The translations under genes and the position numbers were made by a program. The notes below the pieces were generated by a model. It did no database searches. It was not told where the DNA came from and saw only the letters and a list, made by a program, of their open reading frames with translations. Of a stretch of DNA of 58,553 nt, positions 7,193 through 55,752 are shown one piece after another (position 1 is the stretch's first letter; every line of letters starts with the position of its first letter). The stretch is taken from the IMG/VR virus record IMGVR_UViG_3300034018_002110, positions 1 to 58,553 of that record, one strand, 5' to 3'. This stretch comes from a virus.

Positions 7193-7266
7193 GCGGCAGT
7201 AGCTCAGGGGTAAGTAGCACCATTCTTATAAAGTGGGGGTCGGTGGTTCGATTCCACCCTGCCGCA
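7193..7266 (+). tRNA. tRNA-Ile (anticodon UAU)
   Basis: Acceptor GCGGCAG pairs with CTGCCGC, the anticodon arm is CCATT-CTTATAA-AGTGG (anticodon TAT) and the T-arm GGTGG-TTCGATT-CCACC is canonical. The D-stem has one weak pair. A73 follows and CCA is not encoded. It reads the AUA codon, rare in GC-rich hosts. Confidence 0.9.
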
Positions 7267-7270
7267 CTTC

Positions 7271-7344
7271 GATTCTATAGCTCAATTGGATAGAGCAACT
7301 GCCTTCTAAGCAGTAGGTTGCAGGTTCGAGTCCTGCTAGAATCA
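7271..7344 (+). tRNA. tRNA-Arg (anticodon UCU)
   Basis: Acceptor GATTCTA/TAGAATC, anticodon arm ACTGC-CTTCTAA-GCAGT (anticodon TCT, reads AGA) and T-arm GCAGG-TTCGAGT-CCTGC. All arms are intact. CCA is not encoded. Confidence 0.95.
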
Positions 7345-7351
7345 ATCTTAT

Positions 7352-7436
7352 GCACTGGTACGCCAACGGCTGAGCGACATAACTTAAAATTATGTGTGGG
7401 GAAACCCTTCTGTCGGTTCGAATCCGACCCAGTGCA
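7352..7436 (+). tRNA. tRNA-Leu (anticodon UAA)
   Basis: Class II tRNA with acceptor GCACTGG/CCAGTGC, anticodon arm CATAA-CTTAAAA-TTATG (anticodon TAA, reads UUA), a long variable arm and T-arm GTCGG-TTCGAAT-CCGAC. CCA is not encoded. Confidence 0.95.
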
Positions 7437-7438
7437 AT

Positions 7439-17843: not shown

Positions 17844-17993
17844 ATGAAAGAATTTATGATAGTGATACTGGTATACTTCCTAGCATTCCTTATAGCGTCG
17901 TTGGGTTGTTATATGTTTAAAGAAATTGGCGCATATTTGCTAAAGAAGCAGAACGAAAGAGATTACGTCACTACGTATTATTTTAATCACTAA
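17844..17993 (+). CDS. Small membrane protein, 49 aa
   Basis: GGAG lies just upstream of ATG 17844. One transmembrane helix (about residues 5-24) is followed by a basic, Tyr-rich tail. The promoter at 17798 is so close that the leader is only about 10 nt. Confidence 0.6.
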   Translation: MKEFMIVILVYFLAFLIASLGCYMFKEIGAYLLKKQNERDYVTTYYFNH

Positions 17994-18003
17994 GGAGAAA
18001 ATT

Positions 18004-18378
18004 ATGAACGACCAAGAGGCTATCGCCACGAACGGCGGCTCCGGTTCAACGCATTGTTCGTTTTCTGCGATTAATTTTACGCGGCTTAAAAGATACATGG
18101 CAAGCTGGTTTTGTAAGCATGCTGTTGTTCACAATATTGATGTAGCGAATCAGTTGTGTGAATTAGGATTTGTGGTAACTAGTGGTCGTGGACACATGAT
18201 GACATACTTTAAGAATAAAGATGGAAGCAAGAGAGCAGACAACAACAACCCGCCCAATGCGTTAGATTTGTTCTTACTAAACACAGGGCGTTTCGCTCAT
18301 TGGTTTTCCGACAATGTAAGTTGGAACATCTTCAAACGACATACCATCTACAGAGATCTCACGTCTTACGAGAATTGA
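18004..18378 (+). CDS. Hypothetical protein starting in a palindromic repeat, 124 aa
   Basis: AAGGAGAAAATT precedes the ATG. The first 20 codons are written in a partial copy of the repeat seen at 18560 and 19132, giving a low-complexity NGGSGSTHCS start in a different frame from the other copies. The rest has GFVVTSGRGHMMTYF and an Asn-rich turn. Not recognised. Confidence 0.55.
   Translation: MNDQEAIATNGGSGSTHCSFSAINFTRLKRYMASWFCKHAVVHNIDVANQLCELGFVVTSGRGHMMTYFKNKDGSKRADNNNPPNALDLFLLNTGRFAHWFSDNVSWNIFKRHTIYRDLTSYEN
18006..18063 (+). repeat. Palindromic repeat, partial copy 1
   Basis: Shares GAACGACCAAG and the 3' portion CGGCGGCTCCGGTTCAACGC with the full copies at 18560-18655 and 19132-19223 but lacks the central hairpin. 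The flank GTTCGTTTTCTGCGATT is shared with copy 3. Confidence 0.75.
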
Positions 18379-18427
18379 AATCAATACTTTGTTATCGCGG
18401 TAATCAGGTCAACCATAGGAGAATCCA

Positions 18428-19417
18428 GTGCTCAGAAAAGTAAAAGACGGTAATGTGGAAATTGTAGAGTGCGACCTCGATCCAATTGTGACAGGGCGAA
18501 TTCTGGAGGGAATCGTCAATATGAATGCGGCGATTGTATCGTTGTTGGGGTTGTCTGTAGCAACGAACGACCAAGTTAACCGGGACGCCGCGAGCGGCGT
18601 TCCAACCCCAAATCCGGCGAATACGGCGGCTCCGGTTCAACGCATGGTTCGTTGCAATTTGCGGCTTGGGTTTAAGTTACTTGACGAGTGCAGATTTGAT
18701 TGTGTGGTATGGGAGAACACGCCCATTACAGGTGCATGGTGGCACTGCCGCTTATCGGAGAATGCATCCAAACAGTTCGGAATGTCACTGAAACATCAAA
18801 TTGAAATTGGGTCATGTTCGCTAGAAGATGTGCGAGAGATTCAAAGTTATTTTGATGAGGGTTTTCTGCATTCTGGCTTTGTTCTAGGAGCCAGTAGCCA
18901 CTTGGATCTTTCCGAACATTGTCAACCAGAAGTTCAGATATGGAGTGAAGGTATCGTAAAACCTGAAAAACTCGTGATGCATCCTGATATGAAAGATGAG
19001 GAGTGGGCCCGTTGGGATTGTGTTCTGTCAGAACTAAGCAAGACCACCAGTCTGGCCCCTTTCTGTTCTGGTATATCCACTCAGCAGCAATCCGAATCTG
19101 ACGTTCTTCCATATGAATACGATACTTTGAAAACGAACGATCAAGTTAACCGGGACGTCGCGAGCGGCGTTCCAACCTCAATTCCAGCAGCTACGGCGGC
19201 TCCGGTTCAACGCTTTGTTCGTTTTCTGCGATTGATTGCGTCTATTGCATTTTGGCCGCTTCGTTTCCTTCGATTTGCCGGAATGGCGAGGAGCGAACAA
19301 ACTCACGCTGTGATTGTGAAGATACCACCAATGCCATCAGACCTAACTGATGAGATCAAGAGGATTGCTGGCGTAGAGATTCAGCGTGCTCTTTCATTTG
19401 TTGGGAAATCTGTGTGA
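18428..19417 (+). CDS. Hypothetical protein, 329 aa, carrying two in-frame repeats
   Basis: GTG 18428 follows AGGAGAATCCA. The repeat at 18560 and again at 19132 are both translated in the same frame, giving TNDQVNRDAASGVPT and TNDQVNRDVASGVPT segments ending in TAAPVQR. Between them is a unique, Trp-containing region (about residues 80-230). A hydrophobic segment (LIASIAFWPLRFLRF) follows the second copy. The protein seems to have been extended by repeat insertion. Function unknown. Confidence 0.6.
   Translation: MLRKVKDGNVEIVECDLDPIVTGRILEGIVNMNAAIVSLLGLSVATNDQVNRDAASGVPTPNPANTAAPVQRMVRCNLRLGFKLLDECRFDCVVWENTPITGAWWHCRLSENASKQFGMSLKHQIEIGSCSLEDVREIQSYFDEGFLHSGFVLGASSHLDLSEHCQPEVQIWSEGIVKPEKLVMHPDMKDEEWARWDCVLSELSKTTSLAPFCSGISTQQQSESDVLPYEYDTLKTNDQVNRDVASGVPTSIPAATAAPVQRFVRFLRLIASIAFWPLRFLRFAGMARSEQTHAVIVKIPPMPSDLTDEIKRIAGVEIQRALSFVGKSV
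18560..18655 (+). repeat. 96-bp nested palindrome, copy 2 (attC-like shape)
   Basis: Outer arms GCAACGAAC (18560-18568) and GTTCGTTGC (18647-18655) match perfectly. Inner arms GTTAACCGG (18575-18583) and CCGGTTCAAC (18632-18641) match except for one bulged C. A central hairpin ACGCCGC-GA-GCGGCGT occupies 18585-18600. Two nested arms, a one-base bulge and a variable centre are the layout of integron attC sites, although box sequences do not clearly fit. Confidence 0.8.
19132..19223 (+). repeat. Nested palindrome, copy 3
   Basis: Nearly the same sequence as 18560-18655, with changes mostly in the centre and in the 3' outer arm. Frame is conserved inside the host ORF. Confidence 0.8.
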
Positions 19418-19432
19418 GGACGGACTTGGCTA

Positions 19433-19729
19433 TTGCGACCGACTGACCAGATATTGACTTCTCAAATATTAAGGAGAGTAGCTCTGGACTACTATAAAAT
19501 ACCATCAGATGTCCTTACTGGAGAATTTCCCCCGGACTGGGTCAGGCTTAGGCTTGCTTTAGACGGTAATGGGCCATTCTTCTTGCACAGCAACATCGGG
19601 CCACTTGACAAGACCGGCCACTATCGTGGGTTTTATGCCGATATAGGTGACTGGGTCATAAGAATCAAAGATGGCCTTGAGACCTTATACCCAAATGGAC
19701 TATATGTCTTATGCAAATCACATCAATAA
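19433..19729 (+). CDS. Hypothetical protein, 98 aa, start uncertain
   Basis: The frame opens at TTG 19433 without a good ribosome binding site; AAGGAGAG near 19472 suggests that a later non-ATG start may be used. The C-terminal part (GDWVIRIKDGLETLYPNGLYVL) looks like a real domain. Not recognised. Confidence 0.45.
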   Translation: MRPTDQILTSQILRRVALDYYKIPSDVLTGEFPPDWVRLRLALDGNGPFFLHSNIGPLDKTGHYRGFYADIGDWVIRIKDGLETLYPNGLYVLCKSHQ

Positions 19730-22348: not shown

Positions 22349-22578
22349 CCTTGAATGAATTACTTGAGCAGTGCAAAGAACTAGTCGATGCCGGATTTGG
22401 TGACAGCGTAGTTATCAAAGCATCAGACGGCGAAGGCAACGATTTCATTTCCGTAGGAAGTATTCAGAATGACAGAGCCACAGGCGGACCATACCGATTC
22501 GAAGTCATCTCCGAAGAAGATGAAGAAGACTACGAAGAGTACGAAGAAGAACTCATCAGCGTCATCTGTGTCTGGTAA
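22345..22578 (+). CDS. Hypothetical acidic-tailed protein, 77 aa
   Basis: The compact N-terminal 50 residues (LLEQCKELVDAGFGDSVVI) are followed by an acidic run of Asp, Glu and Tyr encoded by GAAGAAGA-type repeats. The same bases are read in another frame by the next gene as a Lys-rich segment. Not recognised. Confidence 0.6.
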   Translation: MTLNELLEQCKELVDAGFGDSVVIKASDGEGNDFISVGSIQNDRATGGPYRFEVISEEDEEDYEEYEEELISVICVW

Positions 22579-23011
22579 GTATACCCTTACTATCAACAAA
22601 GAGCAGGCTCGTATCATGTGCGAAGCACTTGAGATTTATTCACGCCTTAAGCATGGGCAAATCAGCGAGCTTCGTGAACTCTTTCGTGACCGATGGTGTG
22701 CCCCCGATAGTCCGTTCAACTGGTCCACAGAGCCACTCTTGGACAGTCTCAAGGCTGTCATTTTTCCAGAGCTTCCCAAAAATGCATATCATGGGGTTGG
22801 TAGCAAGATATACCCTGAAAGCAGTGTCGCTTGGGATATAATGCAGGTGCTCCGACACAGGATGGCTTGGGACCGATTGAAGGCCGAAGGCCGAGATCAG
22901 CCAGAGTATTGGGGAGTTCAGTACAATCCACCAATGAGGTTCGGAGACGAACCTCTAGCGGAGATCAAAGTTGAAAAAGTTAGCAAAGAAACTGACCAAG
23001 GAATGGCTTGA
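22469..23011 (+). CDS. Conserved-looking phage protein, 180 aa, start uncertain
   Basis: ATG 22469 with AGGAAG 8 nt upstream overlaps the previous gene by 110 nt. The likely conserved domain begins near residue 36 (KYTLTINKEQARIMCEALEI), so a start near 22567 (GTG) is possible. The EQARIMCEALEIYSRL helix and the WDIMQVLRHRMAWDR helix resemble a family of small T4-like phage proteins of unknown role. Confidence 0.6.
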   Translation: MTEPQADHTDSKSSPKKMKKTTKSTKKNSSASSVSGKYTLTINKEQARIMCEALEIYSRLKHGQISELRELFRDRWCAPDSPFNWSTEPLLDSLKAVIFPELPKNAYHGVGSKIYPESSVAWDIMQVLRHRMAWDRLKAEGRDQPEYWGVQYNPPMRFGDEPLAEIKVEKVSKETDQGMA

Positions 23012-23291
23012 GTGGAAATATGGTCCACGATGTCATGAGTTCACGTCAGGGTGCGTTATTTGCAATAAATGGCAGTGTTTCGATGGCTTATTCAAAAGAG
23101 TCGATCCTTTGACTCTCGAAGAGGATATCAAAAAACTTGAGAAGGATTTAAAATGGAAGAAAGAGATGCTTCAAGAATTCCAGAAGGAATCTATTGCTAC
23201 ACCCGAGTCGATGGCAAGCGAGTCAATTGCCCCTACTGGGGACGTGATGAGTCGCGAGACGAGCAGGAATCAGGATTCTGCACCTTCCTAG
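22971..23291 (+). CDS. Hypothetical protein with Cys motif, 106 aa, TTG start
   Basis: TTG 22971 has GGAG 7 nt upstream and sits inside the end of the preceding gene. CVICNKWQCF near residue 28 may bind a metal. The last 45 residues are low in complexity and overlap the next gene by 139 nt in a different frame. Confidence 0.5.
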   Translation: MKKLAKKLTKEWLEWKYGPRCHEFTSGCVICNKWQCFDGLFKRVDPLTLEEDIKKLEKDLKWKKEMLQEFQKESIATPESMASESIAPTGDVMSRETSRNQDSAPS

Positions 23292-23380
23292 ATATAAGAG
23301 ACTGGGATGGGCACGGTGTGCCACTACTCTGGGACCAAGTGAAAGAGTGTGGCATCAACAGGGGAGAAGATTATGATTGA
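23153..23380 (+). CDS. Conserved phage protein (YCYT...CPYW...LLWDQ), 75 aa
   Basis: AAGGATTTAAA precedes ATG 23153. The order YCYT, NCPYWGRD, CTFLD and PLLWDQVKECGIN is typical of a small phage family of unknown function with four conserved cysteines, probably zinc-binding. This supports this frame as the real one in the overlap with the upstream ORF. Confidence 0.7.
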   Translation: MEERDASRIPEGIYCYTRVDGKRVNCPYWGRDESRDEQESGFCTFLDIRDWDGHGVPLLWDQVKECGINRGEDYD

Positions 23381-23870
23381 AGTAGAAATAAACGAAGACA
23401 TGAAACAAAGAGCTTGGAAAAAAGCTCGTGAAATGGGAAAACTAAATCATTCCATAACAAACGGAAGTGGAAATATAGCAGGGTTTTTAGGCGAAGAAGT
23501 AGCCAACTATGTTATAAAAGGAACCATAACAAACACCTATGACTATGACATTGTGGATGAACATGGAATAAAATATGACGTTAAAACAAAAAGATGCACG
23601 AGCAAACCAAAAGACTACTATGAATGCTCGATAGCTGAATATAATCTAAAACAACAATGCAATTATTATGCTTTTGTCAGAGTGGAATTCGTAAATAACA
23701 AATGGGGAAGAGCATGGTACTTGGGGGTTTACGATAAACAATCTTATTTCAAAGATGCAAGATTACTCAAAGAGGGCGATATTGATTCAGACAATAACTT
23801 TCGAGTGAAAGCTAACTGTTACAATATGCCGATCAAACAATTGGTACAAATTTTAAATAAAGACAGGTAA
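23373..23870 (+). CDS. PD-(D/E)XK-type nuclease, predicted
   Basis: GGGGAGAAGATT precedes ATG 23373. The segment GFLGEEVANYVIKG (37-50), YDYDIV (56-61) and KYDVKTKR (67-74) places E41/E42, D59 and D69-x-K71 as a PD-(D/E)XK metal site. At 165 aa it is a single-domain nuclease, perhaps a DNA-repair or host-DNA-degrading enzyme. The upstream ATG at 23349 lies within the previous gene. Confidence 0.65.
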   Translation: MIEVEINEDMKQRAWKKAREMGKLNHSITNGSGNIAGFLGEEVANYVIKGTITNTYDYDIVDEHGIKYDVKTKRCTSKPKDYYECSIAEYNLKQQCNYYAFVRVEFVNNKWGRAWYLGVYDKQSYFKDARLLKEGDIDSDNNFRVKANCYNMPIKQLVQILNKDR

Positions 23871-27316: not shown

Positions 27317-27590
27317 GGGCCGGTAATGGAATTGATTTGGGACGTAAGTGATGATGGCGAGTAGGAGTTGGTCAATGGCTCCTTAAAAATTGACCGAACA
27401 ATAACTGCAAAATCTTTTGCTGTAGCTGCATAAGCTGGAGGGTCTCATGCCCCTCCTTACAAAAGCATGAGAGTTACGATACGCAACGCTGACTTGGTTG
27501 GCAACATGAACCGGAAGCTTTAGCTTCCTACACTCGTAGATATCATTATTGAAATCACCAAAGACACGGGAGCCATACCCGTCCGGTCCA
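27317..27590 (+). ncRNA. ssrA: Transfer-messenger RNA (tmRNA)
   Basis: Acceptor GGGCCGG pairs with CCGGTCC and has the G3-U70 wobble and A73 that mark alanine acceptors. A T-arm ACGGG/CCCGT follows in register. Pseudoknot 1 is GGAG/CTCC interleaved with GGTCAAT/ATTGACC (27364-27395). The tag frame 27407-27433 starts at a GCA resume codon and reads AKSFAVAA then TAA, ending in the degradation-type AVAA. Pseudoknot 2 is GGAGGG/CCCTCC with TCTCATGC/GCATGAGA (27437-27472). P2-type pairing GTGAT/ATCAC closes the ring. At 274 nt it is compact. It would need host SmpB. The T-loop AGCCATA is unusual. Confidence 0.9.
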
Positions 27591-27619
27591 CTTATCCCTT
27601 TGGATTCCTCTTATTCTGG

Positions 27620-36644: not shown

Positions 36645-36843
36645 TGGTTTTCAATTAAACACTAGAGATTTGATCAACTTGGCAAAGAACGCGGCACTTG
36701 TTGGTGGAGCAGCCGCTTTGACTGTGGTTGCTGAAAATGTAAAACTTATAGACTTTGGTGTGTATTCACCTCTTGTCACCACAGTTCTCGCAATGGGCTT
36801 GGACACAATTTTGAAGTGGGCAAAAAACAACAACAAGAAGTAA
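36625..36843 (+). CDS. Holin-like small membrane protein, 72 aa
   Basis: GGAGAATGTA precedes the ATG. Two hydrophobic segments (about 21-37 and 45-60) and a Lys-rich tail KWAKNNNKK fit a small holin. It precedes a papain-like peptidase. Holin function is inferred. Confidence 0.6.
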   Translation: MSTEGSNGFQLNTRDLINLAKNAALVGGAAALTVVAENVKLIDFGVYSPLVTTVLAMGLDTILKWAKNNNKK

Positions 36844-52813: not shown

Positions 52814-53869
52814 ATGAAGACAACAAATGCTCGTCTTGATCTCTCTAAAGTAAAAGATATAATTTTTAACGATATCTTCATTCTTCTGGACAGTTTTAAG
52901 TTGGAATATACTCAGGATAGAGATAACATCTTTATGAGGTGTCCTATTCATGAAGGCAGTGACAATCAAAATGGACTGTCGATTTCTTTGAACAAGCAGA
53001 TGTGGAAATGTTGGACCCGTGGCTGTCATGATCATTTTCAATCAGATATTTTTGGTTTGATCAAAGGGTTATTGGATACAGAATCATTCTCAGAGGTATT
53101 AAAATACACGTCTAAATTGTATAATTTTTACGACGCAAAAAGCGATAAGATCACTATCGACACTGTTTCTGGATATGATGCAGACGACTGTTACAATGAC
53201 TTTAATAAAATTGTTAGTTCTATCTCTAGATCTAAAAATAACCCTGAGGGCTGCACCAAGTCGCTCAACAAGGATTTGTTGGGAGACTCAGGGATCATGT
53301 CTCCTTATTTCTTATCCAGAGGGTTTAAAGAAGAAACGCTCAAATTCTTTGAGGTTAAAGAAACGAAAGATCGCCAAGGGATTTTTAGACACAGGGCAAT
53401 CATTCCTATTCGTTTCAAATCCCATGCCGTTGGATTCATTGCTAGAGCAACCAAAGAATGGATACAACCAAAATACATCTTCTCCGAGGGGTTAAGAAAA
53501 ACAGATTATTTATACAATTTTGACAATGCTATAAGTTCTGCACAAGATACAAATTCAATGTTTTTGGTGGAAGGTCAAGGTGATGTTTGGAGACTGTGGG
53601 AATGTGGAGTTCGCAATTGTGTTGGATTATTTGGAAAAGATATATCCGGAACACAAAGAAGCTTGTTATTGAATTCAGGTGTGACGACGCTCGTCGTGTT
53701 GACAGACAATGATCAGGCTGGAAGAGAATCTAAAATAAAGATAAACAGAGACCTAGGCAGATTATTCAAATTAATTTTTCCAAACATCAATGCTAAAGAT
53801 ATTGGTTCTATACAAAGTAAAACCGTTAAAACGAATATCTTAAAAGACTTAAAAGGATACTATCAATGA
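52814..53869 (+). CDS. DnaG-like primase
   Basis: A zinc-binding N-terminus (C43, H46, C66, C71), a middle domain, and a toprim core with FLVEGQGDVWRL and VVLTDNDQAGRES. At 351 aa it is smaller than bacterial DnaG (about 580 aa). No clear ribosome binding site. It overlaps the next gene by 4 nt. It makes primers for the helicase-bearing replisome. Confidence 0.85.
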   Translation: MKTTNARLDLSKVKDIIFNDIFILLDSFKLEYTQDRDNIFMRCPIHEGSDNQNGLSISLNKQMWKCWTRGCHDHFQSDIFGLIKGLLDTESFSEVLKYTSKLYNFYDAKSDKITIDTVSGYDADDCYNDFNKIVSSISRSKNNPEGCTKSLNKDLLGDSGIMSPYFLSRGFKEETLKFFEVKETKDRQGIFRHRAIIPIRFKSHAVGFIARATKEWIQPKYIFSEGLRKTDYLYNFDNAISSAQDTNSMFLVEGQGDVWRLWECGVRNCVGLFGKDISGTQRSLLLNSGVTTLVVLTDNDQAGRESKIKINRDLGRLFKLIFPNINAKDIGSIQSKTVKTNILKDLKGYYQ

Positions 53870-54705
53870 TTCTAGGAATTTCTGGACGCAAGCAAGCTGG
53901 CAAAAACACTACTGCAAACATCTTGCATGGCATTGTTCTCAAGGAACAGGGATTTATTAAAGATTGGGAAATTGGAGATACTGGTCAATTATTGATCAAG
54001 ACATCTGGTGTAGATGGTTGGGGCGAATTCTGCATTGAACGTAAAGATAAAGCGTTTGTAGCATGGGCAGATAATAATATGTGGCCATTCGTTAAGCTTT
54101 ATAGTTTCGCGGACAGTCTAAAATGGATGTGTACAGAACTTTTTGATATTCCAAATGAATGCGTTTGGGGAACCAATGATCAAAAAAATCAAATTCAAGA
54201 ACATTTACTTTGGGAAAATATGCCCGGAGTTGTCACTCCGGAAGTCGCGGAGGAATTCTTCGACAAACACATCGATGACTTCAACCGACTCAGTCCACCA
54301 GCAGCTAAAGAAGACTTTCTGTCTATGGGGCTGATCATCCACAAGTCAGGCTTCATGACCGCTCGCGAGTTTATGCAATACTTGGGCACAGATGTGATGC
54401 GCAAGATGTATGAGCCAATTTGGGTTAAAGCATGCCTTAAAAAGATACAACACGAACAATCTCAGTTGGCAATAATAGCAGATGTTCGTTTTCCAAGTGA
54501 AGTTAAAGCGATAGAGCAAGCTGGCGGAACGCTGGTGCGACTAACAAGGAAAGTTTTCTCAAAAGATAATCATTCCAGTGAAGTAGCCCTTGACGATTAC
54601 CCATTTGTCCATGTTATGGAAAACAGCAATGAATCAATAAATGAACTAAAGAATAAGGTAAAATCTTTTTATCTTAATTTAGTAAAACCCACTTACCTTA
54701 ATTAA
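53866..54705 (+). CDS. Deoxynucleoside monophosphate kinase
   Basis: P-loop GRKQAGKNT (7-15) and LAIIADVRFPSEVKAIE match T4 gp1-type dNMP kinases, which phosphorylate dTMP, dGMP and related substrates. 279 aa, close to T4 gp1 (241 aa). Overlaps primase. Confidence 0.8.
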   Translation: MILGISGRKQAGKNTTANILHGIVLKEQGFIKDWEIGDTGQLLIKTSGVDGWGEFCIERKDKAFVAWADNNMWPFVKLYSFADSLKWMCTELFDIPNECVWGTNDQKNQIQEHLLWENMPGVVTPEVAEEFFDKHIDDFNRLSPPAAKEDFLSMGLIIHKSGFMTAREFMQYLGTDVMRKMYEPIWVKACLKKIQHEQSQLAIIADVRFPSEVKAIEQAGGTLVRLTRKVFSKDNHSSEVALDDYPFVHVMENSNESINELKNKVKSFYLNLVKPTYLN

Positions 54706-54714
54706 AGGAATCTG

Positions 54715-55752
54715 ATGCTAGTAACATATGTAAGAAGTTCCAGCTACAACAATTATGACTTTTGCCAAATGCAATATTTTTTGACTTATGTCTTGGGATG
54801 GCAATCTGACAGTGGCAAAAAGGCAGATATGGGAACGATGTCACATAAAGTTATGGAAATTTTAGCTTCCTTTAAAAAGTATCAACAAGATAATCCACGC
54901 AAAAAGATTTTTGAAATACAAGACGATAAATGCGGCAAGATAAAGGTTTCAAAAGATGAGCTTTATACCGATGGGTTTGTGGATAAAATTATTGATCTAT
55001 CGATATTAAAATATTCAGATGGTTCAAAACATAAATTTCTTAAAAGTGATAAAGCAGATGTTCGAAATACGGTTTTTGCTTTTTTAACGCATACAGATGG
55101 ACTGTTTGACCCCAGAAACAGAAACATTCATCATCCAGAAGCTCATTTTGATATTCTTATAGAAGAAGAATGGGCTAAATTTGAATATGAAATAGACGGC
55201 AAAATGGTCAAGGGTCAACTGGCAATAAAAGGAACCATTGACTTGACAACCTTGGTGAATGACTCTACAATAGAAGTTATCGACTGGAAAAGTGGAAGAC
55301 GTATGGATTGGGCTACCGGACAAGCCAAAGATTACAAGAAGCTGGAAGATGACCCTCAGTTGCTTTTATATTTTTACGCTATTTCCAAATTGTATAAAGA
55401 TTTTCCCAATAGAATAATGAGCATCTTCTTTTATAAAGATCCTGACGGTAAGCCAGATCCAAAACCTTTCAGCATTTGCTTTGGACCAGAAGATGAACAA
55501 AGGTTTCTAGAAAAACTTAAAAACAGGTTTTTAGAGATTCAACAAAACAATAATCCAAAGCCTGTAGATCCAACAAGAAACAATATGAAATGTAAATATC
55601 TGTGTCATTTTTGCAAAAACAATTGGGAGGACACCAATGAGAATATGTGTATATACATAGAGAAGCATTTAAAACAACACGGCATGAAAGAGACTATCAA
55701 AGATTGCACCCGTCCCGGTTTCAACATAGGTTTCTATGAAGCACCGGGCTAA
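54715..55752 (+). CDS. PD-(D/E)XK exonuclease, RecB/Cas4-like
   Basis: N-terminal SSSYNNYDFCQMQYFLTYVL (about 8-27), the core KGTIDLTTL and IEVIDWKSGRR (PD-(D/E)XK metal residues) and a C-terminal cluster CKYLCHFC with a further Cys form the layout of AddB/Cas4-like nucleases with an iron-sulfur cluster. 345 aa. It may process DNA ends for recombination. Confidence 0.85.
   Translation: MLVTYVRSSSYNNYDFCQMQYFLTYVLGWQSDSGKKADMGTMSHKVMEILASFKKYQQDNPRKKIFEIQDDKCGKIKVSKDELYTDGFVDKIIDLSILKYSDGSKHKFLKSDKADVRNTVFAFLTHTDGLFDPRNRNIHHPEAHFDILIEEEWAKFEYEIDGKMVKGQLAIKGTIDLTTLVNDSTIEVIDWKSGRRMDWATGQAKDYKKLEDDPQLLLYFYAISKLYKDFPNRIMSIFFYKDPDGKPDPKPFSICFGPEDEQRFLEKLKNRFLEIQQNNNPKPVDPTRNNMKCKYLCHFCKNNWEDTNENMCIYIEKHLKQHGMKETIKDCTRPGFNIGFYEAPG

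Follow-up and report, generated by a model that had tools for sequence, protein, structure and literature searches.

Probable integron attC sites translated behind start codons in the lineage of an apparently virulent phage

The window analysed here, 58,553 nt of viral DNA that make up the IMG/VR record IMGVR_UViG_3300034018_002110, contains an island with three copies of a nested palindrome and two ORFs that read into them (Table 1). The phage appears to be virulent, judged by a gene content that includes an rIIA-like protein, a ribonucleotide reductase and a DnaB-like helicase. The longer ORF of the island has an alternative in-frame GTG at 18428, which would extend its product to 329 aa. 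No family was found for the 124-aa ORF in PHROGs, Pfam or PADLOC, and no homologue of the 298-aa ORF among viral contigs and phages. For the cargo proteins, PHROGs, PADLOC and Pfam returned nothing useful, the cassette bodies had no relatives among viral contigs or phages, and a search for homologues of the ORF bodies that lack the palindrome found none. An AlphaFold model of the 298-aa ORF calculated from the single sequence reached a pLDDT of 41 and was discarded. Elsewhere in the window, positions 27317-27593 match the tmRNA family of Rfam (61.9 bits) next to a tRNA-Gln and were not called as tmRNA by ARAGORN, and three further tRNAs lie within 7193-7437.

Table 1. Features of the island with probable attC sites (positions in the window; R1 and R2 are the covariance models described in the text)
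Feature	Position	Strand	Basis or remark
Island with three probable attC sites	17972-19451	+	blastn synteny with sister phage G003 stops at 17971 and restarts at 19452
Shine-Dalgarno AAGGAG and 124-aa ORF	17991-18378	+	ATG 18004 at the left edge of the decayed copy 1
Probable attC copy 1, internally deleted	18004-18062	+	Model R1, E 0.003-0.004; R' GTTCGTT 18056-18062
Putative cassette 1	18057-18647	+	Runs from the G|TT of copy 1 to that of copy 2; boundaries inferred from R' boxes
298-aa ORF	18521-19417	+	Shine-Dalgarno GGAGGG, ATG 18521; reads through copies 2 and 3
Probable attC copy 2	18560-18655	+	Folding; model R2, 40.6 bits, E 5e-8
Boxes of copy 2	R'' AACGAAC 18562-18568; L'' 18575-18583; L' 18632-18641; R' GTTCGTT 18647-18653	+
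Putative cassette 2	18648-19217	+	Runs from the G|TT of copy 2 to that of copy 3; boundaries inferred from R' boxes; ORF without a stop ahead of copy 3
Probable attC copy 3	19129-19226	+	Folding; model R2, 42.6 bits, E 1e-8
Boxes of copy 3	R'' GAAAACGAAC; L'' 19145-19153; L' 19202-19211; R' GTTCGTTTTC	+

Copies 2 and 3 are whole 92-nt units (18562-18653 and 19132-19223), 89% identical and 570 bp apart. Their outer arms pair perfectly, over 9 bp in copy 2 (GCAACGAAC/GTTCGTTGC) and 10 bp in copy 3 (GAAAACGAAC/GTTCGTTTTC), and an unpaired spacer separates them from the inner arm, GTTAACCGG/CCGGTTcAAC, which contains one additional C. Folding of the top strand was more stable than that of shuffled sequences, with z scores of -3.4 and -3.3 for copies 2 and 3, and these outer and inner stems also formed on the bottom strand, where the folds stood out less from the shuffles (z -1.2 and -1.4). 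The GC content of the two copies is 0.61 and 0.57, compared to 0.40 for the window, and a 20-nt core of the right half occurs three times in the window against an expectation of 0.01. Copy 1 retains the left edge and the right half (18032-18062) and has lost approximately 30 nt including the left inner arm (L''). Since its first 13 nt are shared with the single site of the sister phage G003, its right part is identical to that site at 45/45 nt and the middle is absent, copy 1 looks like a deleted form of a G003-type site. An earlier note, made from the letters of the window alone, had described three copies of a nested palindrome with a GC-rich centre unlike the phage DNA, one of them partial and each full copy with one bulged base in the inner arm; it placed copies 2 and 3 in one frame of a single ORF and copy 1 in another. 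This description was borne out, including the frames, as the right half of copy 1 is read in a different phase, and folding showed the stems on each strand. The 9-bp outer arm of the note, said to be perfect in copy 2, is correct for that copy, whereas the arm of copy 3 measures 10 bp and is perfect as well.

Integron attC sites carry an R' box with the consensus GTTRRRY, which is cleaved after the G (G|TT). Copies 2 and 3 show the attC order R''-L''-L'-R', with paired R and L arms and an extrahelical base in the L arm. The GTT of R' is kept in all copies; the full box GTTCGTT deviates from the consensus, which counts against a reading as attC. One site of the related contig G004 has the variant GTTAGGC, and many sites in cassette arrays are, like those of the window, off GTTRRRY. 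Rfam gave no match at the palindromes. Clusters of attC sites lacking an integrase (CALINs) have at least two attC in a few kb and no integron integrase close by. The window holds two sites (copies 2 and 3) 570 bp apart and no match to an integron integrase.

Membership in the attC family was assessed with two covariance models. Model R1 was built from 15 sites, among them sites of the phage lineage, and revealed that G007 (L030/L075), L037, L040, L050 and L063 carry dense series of further sites, at intervals mostly of 300-600 bp. These virus-labelled contigs carry long attC cassette arrays of 7 to 12 sites and are perhaps fragments of chromosomal integrons next to prophage or phage DNA. Model R2 was trained on 30 sites of such cassette arrays, which show strong covariation in the L arm and include neither a phage-lineage site nor any site matching our search pattern. 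As these 30 sites were first located by R1, which contains lineage sites, R2 is independent in its training data and not in its discovery. In a scan of 411 kb, R2 recovered copies 2 and 3 with E values of about 1e-8 and further matched the G003 site, three sites in G002 and three in G004. As positive controls, it also detected an attC that closes the dfrB2 cassette in the class 1 integron on plasmid R388 and a single site in phage TJE1; R1 additionally detected a second cassette end of R388, and the TJE1 site was matched by both models. Apart from these, R2 returned two weak matches to attC-like sites and one further match with E 6.7, so that there was nearly no background.

In a true array, R'' pairs with the first bases of the cassette that it belongs to, as the two made up a single site in the excised circle; it need not pair with the R' beside which it presently lies. 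R'' was complementary to its own cassette start in 35 of 40 adjacent pairs, with a mean run of 8.45 versus 4.5 bp. Both pairs of G002 follow the rule over 10 bp each, the 5' arms of sites 2 and 3 matching the preceding 3' arm and not their own. The final unit of G004, as read from its sequence, has a lone R'' (TTGAAAACGAAC) that matches its cassette start, the rest of the site being lost. For the window the rule is indecisive, because all arms share a 7-bp core: R'' matches the R' of the same site over 9 bp in copy 2 and 10 bp in copy 3, and the R' of the preceding site over 7 bp. Beyond this core, the arms at 18647-18655 and 19129-19138 match their own site and not the neighbour, against the usual rule and possibly by chance. 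The resemblance to attC sites proposed in the earlier note is thus upheld by the independently trained R2, its positive controls and the cassette-start rule in related arrays. We consider it highly probable (about 0.9) that the repeats of the window are integron attC sites, one of them decayed, in a short integrase-less cassette array on an apparently virulent phage.

Four related phage contigs, which form one lineage in IMG/VR by their core genes, together contain ten sites of this attC type. Besides the window these are G003, a 46-kb sister phage whose matched ORF products have a mean identity of 87.7% and which has one site; G002, a contig of 69 kb with three sites that is recognizable as a phage by its tape measure protein; and G004, of 8 kb, with one close match to the DNA pattern and three sites by R2. 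At the place of the window island, G003 contains about 1.47 kb of unrelated DNA, and its site lies elsewhere, fused to another ORF. This place in the sister phage (L015 7211-8677) holds a tRNA-like sequence and unrelated ORFs and could be an exchange hotspot. G004 has an array of about 1.5 kb between homologues of two core genes, which in the window encode a dNMP kinase (53866-54705) and an exonuclease (54715-55752); the gap between these two genes is 9 nt in the window and about 30 nt in G002. The insert of G004 has whole ORFs between its sites and includes a decayed site. The presence and absence of the unit in related phages supports a spread of the repeat, as had been suspected from the window, among phage genomes. 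A separate stretch of 30 nt (36808-36837) is identical to a non-syntenic place of the sister phage (L007 10318-10347).

The sites of the lineage share their position relative to genes. At 10/10 sites, an ORF that begins upstream reads through the attC and continues for at least 150 nt past it, and at 9/10 this ORF starts from an ATG that lies 0-41 nt ahead of the site and has a Shine-Dalgarno match of at least 4 nt. Among the sites of cassette arrays, a through-reading ORF was found at 4/41 and a start codon (GTG) with a Shine-Dalgarno match at 1/41; the difference between lineage and array sites gives a Fisher probability of about 3e-8, in which sites within one phage are not independent. Several unrelated ORFs carry the unit at their 5' end, and beyond R' they continue in two reading phases, indicating that DNA and not peptide is conserved. 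An attC hairpin in an mRNA impedes ribosomes, an obstacle that is relieved when translation passes through the hairpin (PMC8876359); this would give the in-gene layout a plausible use. The lineage-wide placement of attC behind start codons, with whole sites translated, is the unusual feature, and no report of such a layout was found in a limited search of open-access texts. It may have arisen within the phage, or it may have been inherited from an array of this subtype in a host.

An internal repeat of a single protein would account for the common frame of copies 2 and 3 within one ORF. Such a repeat, which in the earlier note would have spoken against a mobile element if confined to this gene, is hardly credible, because the unit occurs at several unrelated 5' ends in two phases: copy 1, the G003 site and two G002 sites use the other phase, and the ORF bodies lack clear likeness. 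A palindromic element that inserts in frame, mobile as a hairpin alone and unrelated to integrons, would agree with the translation of the unit inside ORFs in two phases and with the self-complementarity of the whole window copies beyond the 7-bp core. The palindromic elements of Rickettsia are retained inside reading frames in a similar way, and they are not known to have a cassette structure or R and L boxes. The recognition of the unit by a model of unrelated cassette arrays, the 10-bp match of the 5' arms of G002 sites 2 and 3 to the previous 3' arm in place of their own, and the whole ORFs between the sites of the G004 insert nevertheless make such an element very improbable.

The regular position behind a Shine-Dalgarno sequence and ATG, the decayed copies in the window and in G004 and the lack of an integrase on the phages would also be expected if attC-derived sequences now served phage gene expression as a nucleic-acid structure, a hairpin behind the start codon, and had lost recombination. 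We regard this as unlikely, since the G002 sites retain R and L boxes, the cassette boundaries obey the recombination rule and copy 1 has lost the hairpin while the ORF was kept.

Under the attC reading, the likely source of the sites is a cassette array in a host with an integron. The single-stranded site would fold into the attC hairpin with its R and L stems and extrahelical base, and the integron integrase of a host could cut at G|TT of R', so that cassettes are inserted or removed. The integron integrase model (TIGR02249) had no match in the sequences of the window, G002, G003 and G004, records that may be fragments; the clusters of the lineage are thus attC clusters lacking an integrase, and a host enzyme would have to act. 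The earlier note had pointed to related phages as the place to look for an integron-type recombinase, and on these contigs the model found none. Because the sites lie just behind a ribosome-binding site and ATG and would be translated as a leader fused to the downstream ORF, a cassette entering at R' could be expressed from the resident start codon if in frame, and translation may prevent the attC hairpin of the mRNA from folding, a presumed benefit of the in-gene position. As the phages retain attC in a translated leader at the 5' end of the ORF, exchanging a cassette would replace the body of a gene and leave its resident start codon in place, and genes of this phage family may therefore be open to exchange by a bacterial gene-swapping system. 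More tentatively, in a reading that we consider less likely than not, the attC at gene 5' ends could act as a capture port at which the host integrase swaps the gene bodies that follow resident ribosome-binding sites and start codons, and the phage samples host cassettes as ready-translated fusions.

CALINs have already been reported in Tetrasphaera phage TJE1, Polaribacter phage P12002L and Pseudoalteromonas phage PH101, and the attC sites of TJE1 were shown to recombine (PMC9892861). Like this lineage, these phages combine attC sites with small ORFs, lack an integrase and are apparently virulent. In contrast to the lineage, in which ORFs start before the attC and read through it, the TJE1 site that we examined has a stop inside the attC and the next ORF begins after it; the occurrence of one attC type at different loci of four related contigs likewise distinguishes the lineage from phage CALINs. 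The putative chromosomal integron arrays named above (G007, L037, L040, L050 and L063) have the same L boxes, spacing, 300-600 bp intervals and cassette-start rule, but they are long, and the arrangement of Shine-Dalgarno sequence, ATG and read-through ORF has a counterpart at 1/41 of their sites. In fused gene cassettes of class 1 integrons and with ORF-11 of attI1, an upstream start or leader translates the following cassette, as here (PMC8876359). Cassette fusions in class 1 integrons usually arise via partial or total loss of attC (PMC8876359), whereas whole attC sites are translated in the phage lineage. If our interpretation is correct, phages carry more than stray cassettes, and one lineage does so repeatedly, at different loci and with the recombination site behind a start codon. 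This would open a route for host integrons to diversify the accessory genes of phages and for phages to carry cassettes from one bacterium to another, and it points to a way in which cassettes can be expressed despite the attC hairpin.

The searches for the unit, whose lineage subtype is defined by AACGACCAAGTTAACC...GGTTCAACGCNTTGTTCGTTTTCTG, did not find the host or its integron. At blastn sensitivity the unit was absent from INPHARED phages and PLSDB plasmids, and an exact pattern was not found in 398 Pseudomonadota genomes. An exact scan of GTDB (one genome per species, 84,980 species) returned two hits, both without the left half, which look like chance and were rejected as relatives. The planctomycete origin suggested in the earlier note thus received no support, and nothing names a host. 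Phage relatives identified by the helicase were too distant for naming one. Beyond the known relatives, matches to the 3' flank pattern GTTCGTTTTCTGYGATT resemble unrelated phage genes and were discarded. A looser pattern also retrieved virus-labelled contigs with the same L boxes. The virus-labelled 47-kb contig L073/L074 (IMGVR_UViG_3300048839_000431), by its gene content a prophage-like contig with an integron, encodes a full integron integrase (22556-23494, + strand; TIGR02249, 426 bits) that adjoins a second tyrosine recombinase, a lambda-type portal and a DnaB helicase, and it has attC-like sites at 18703 and 19861.
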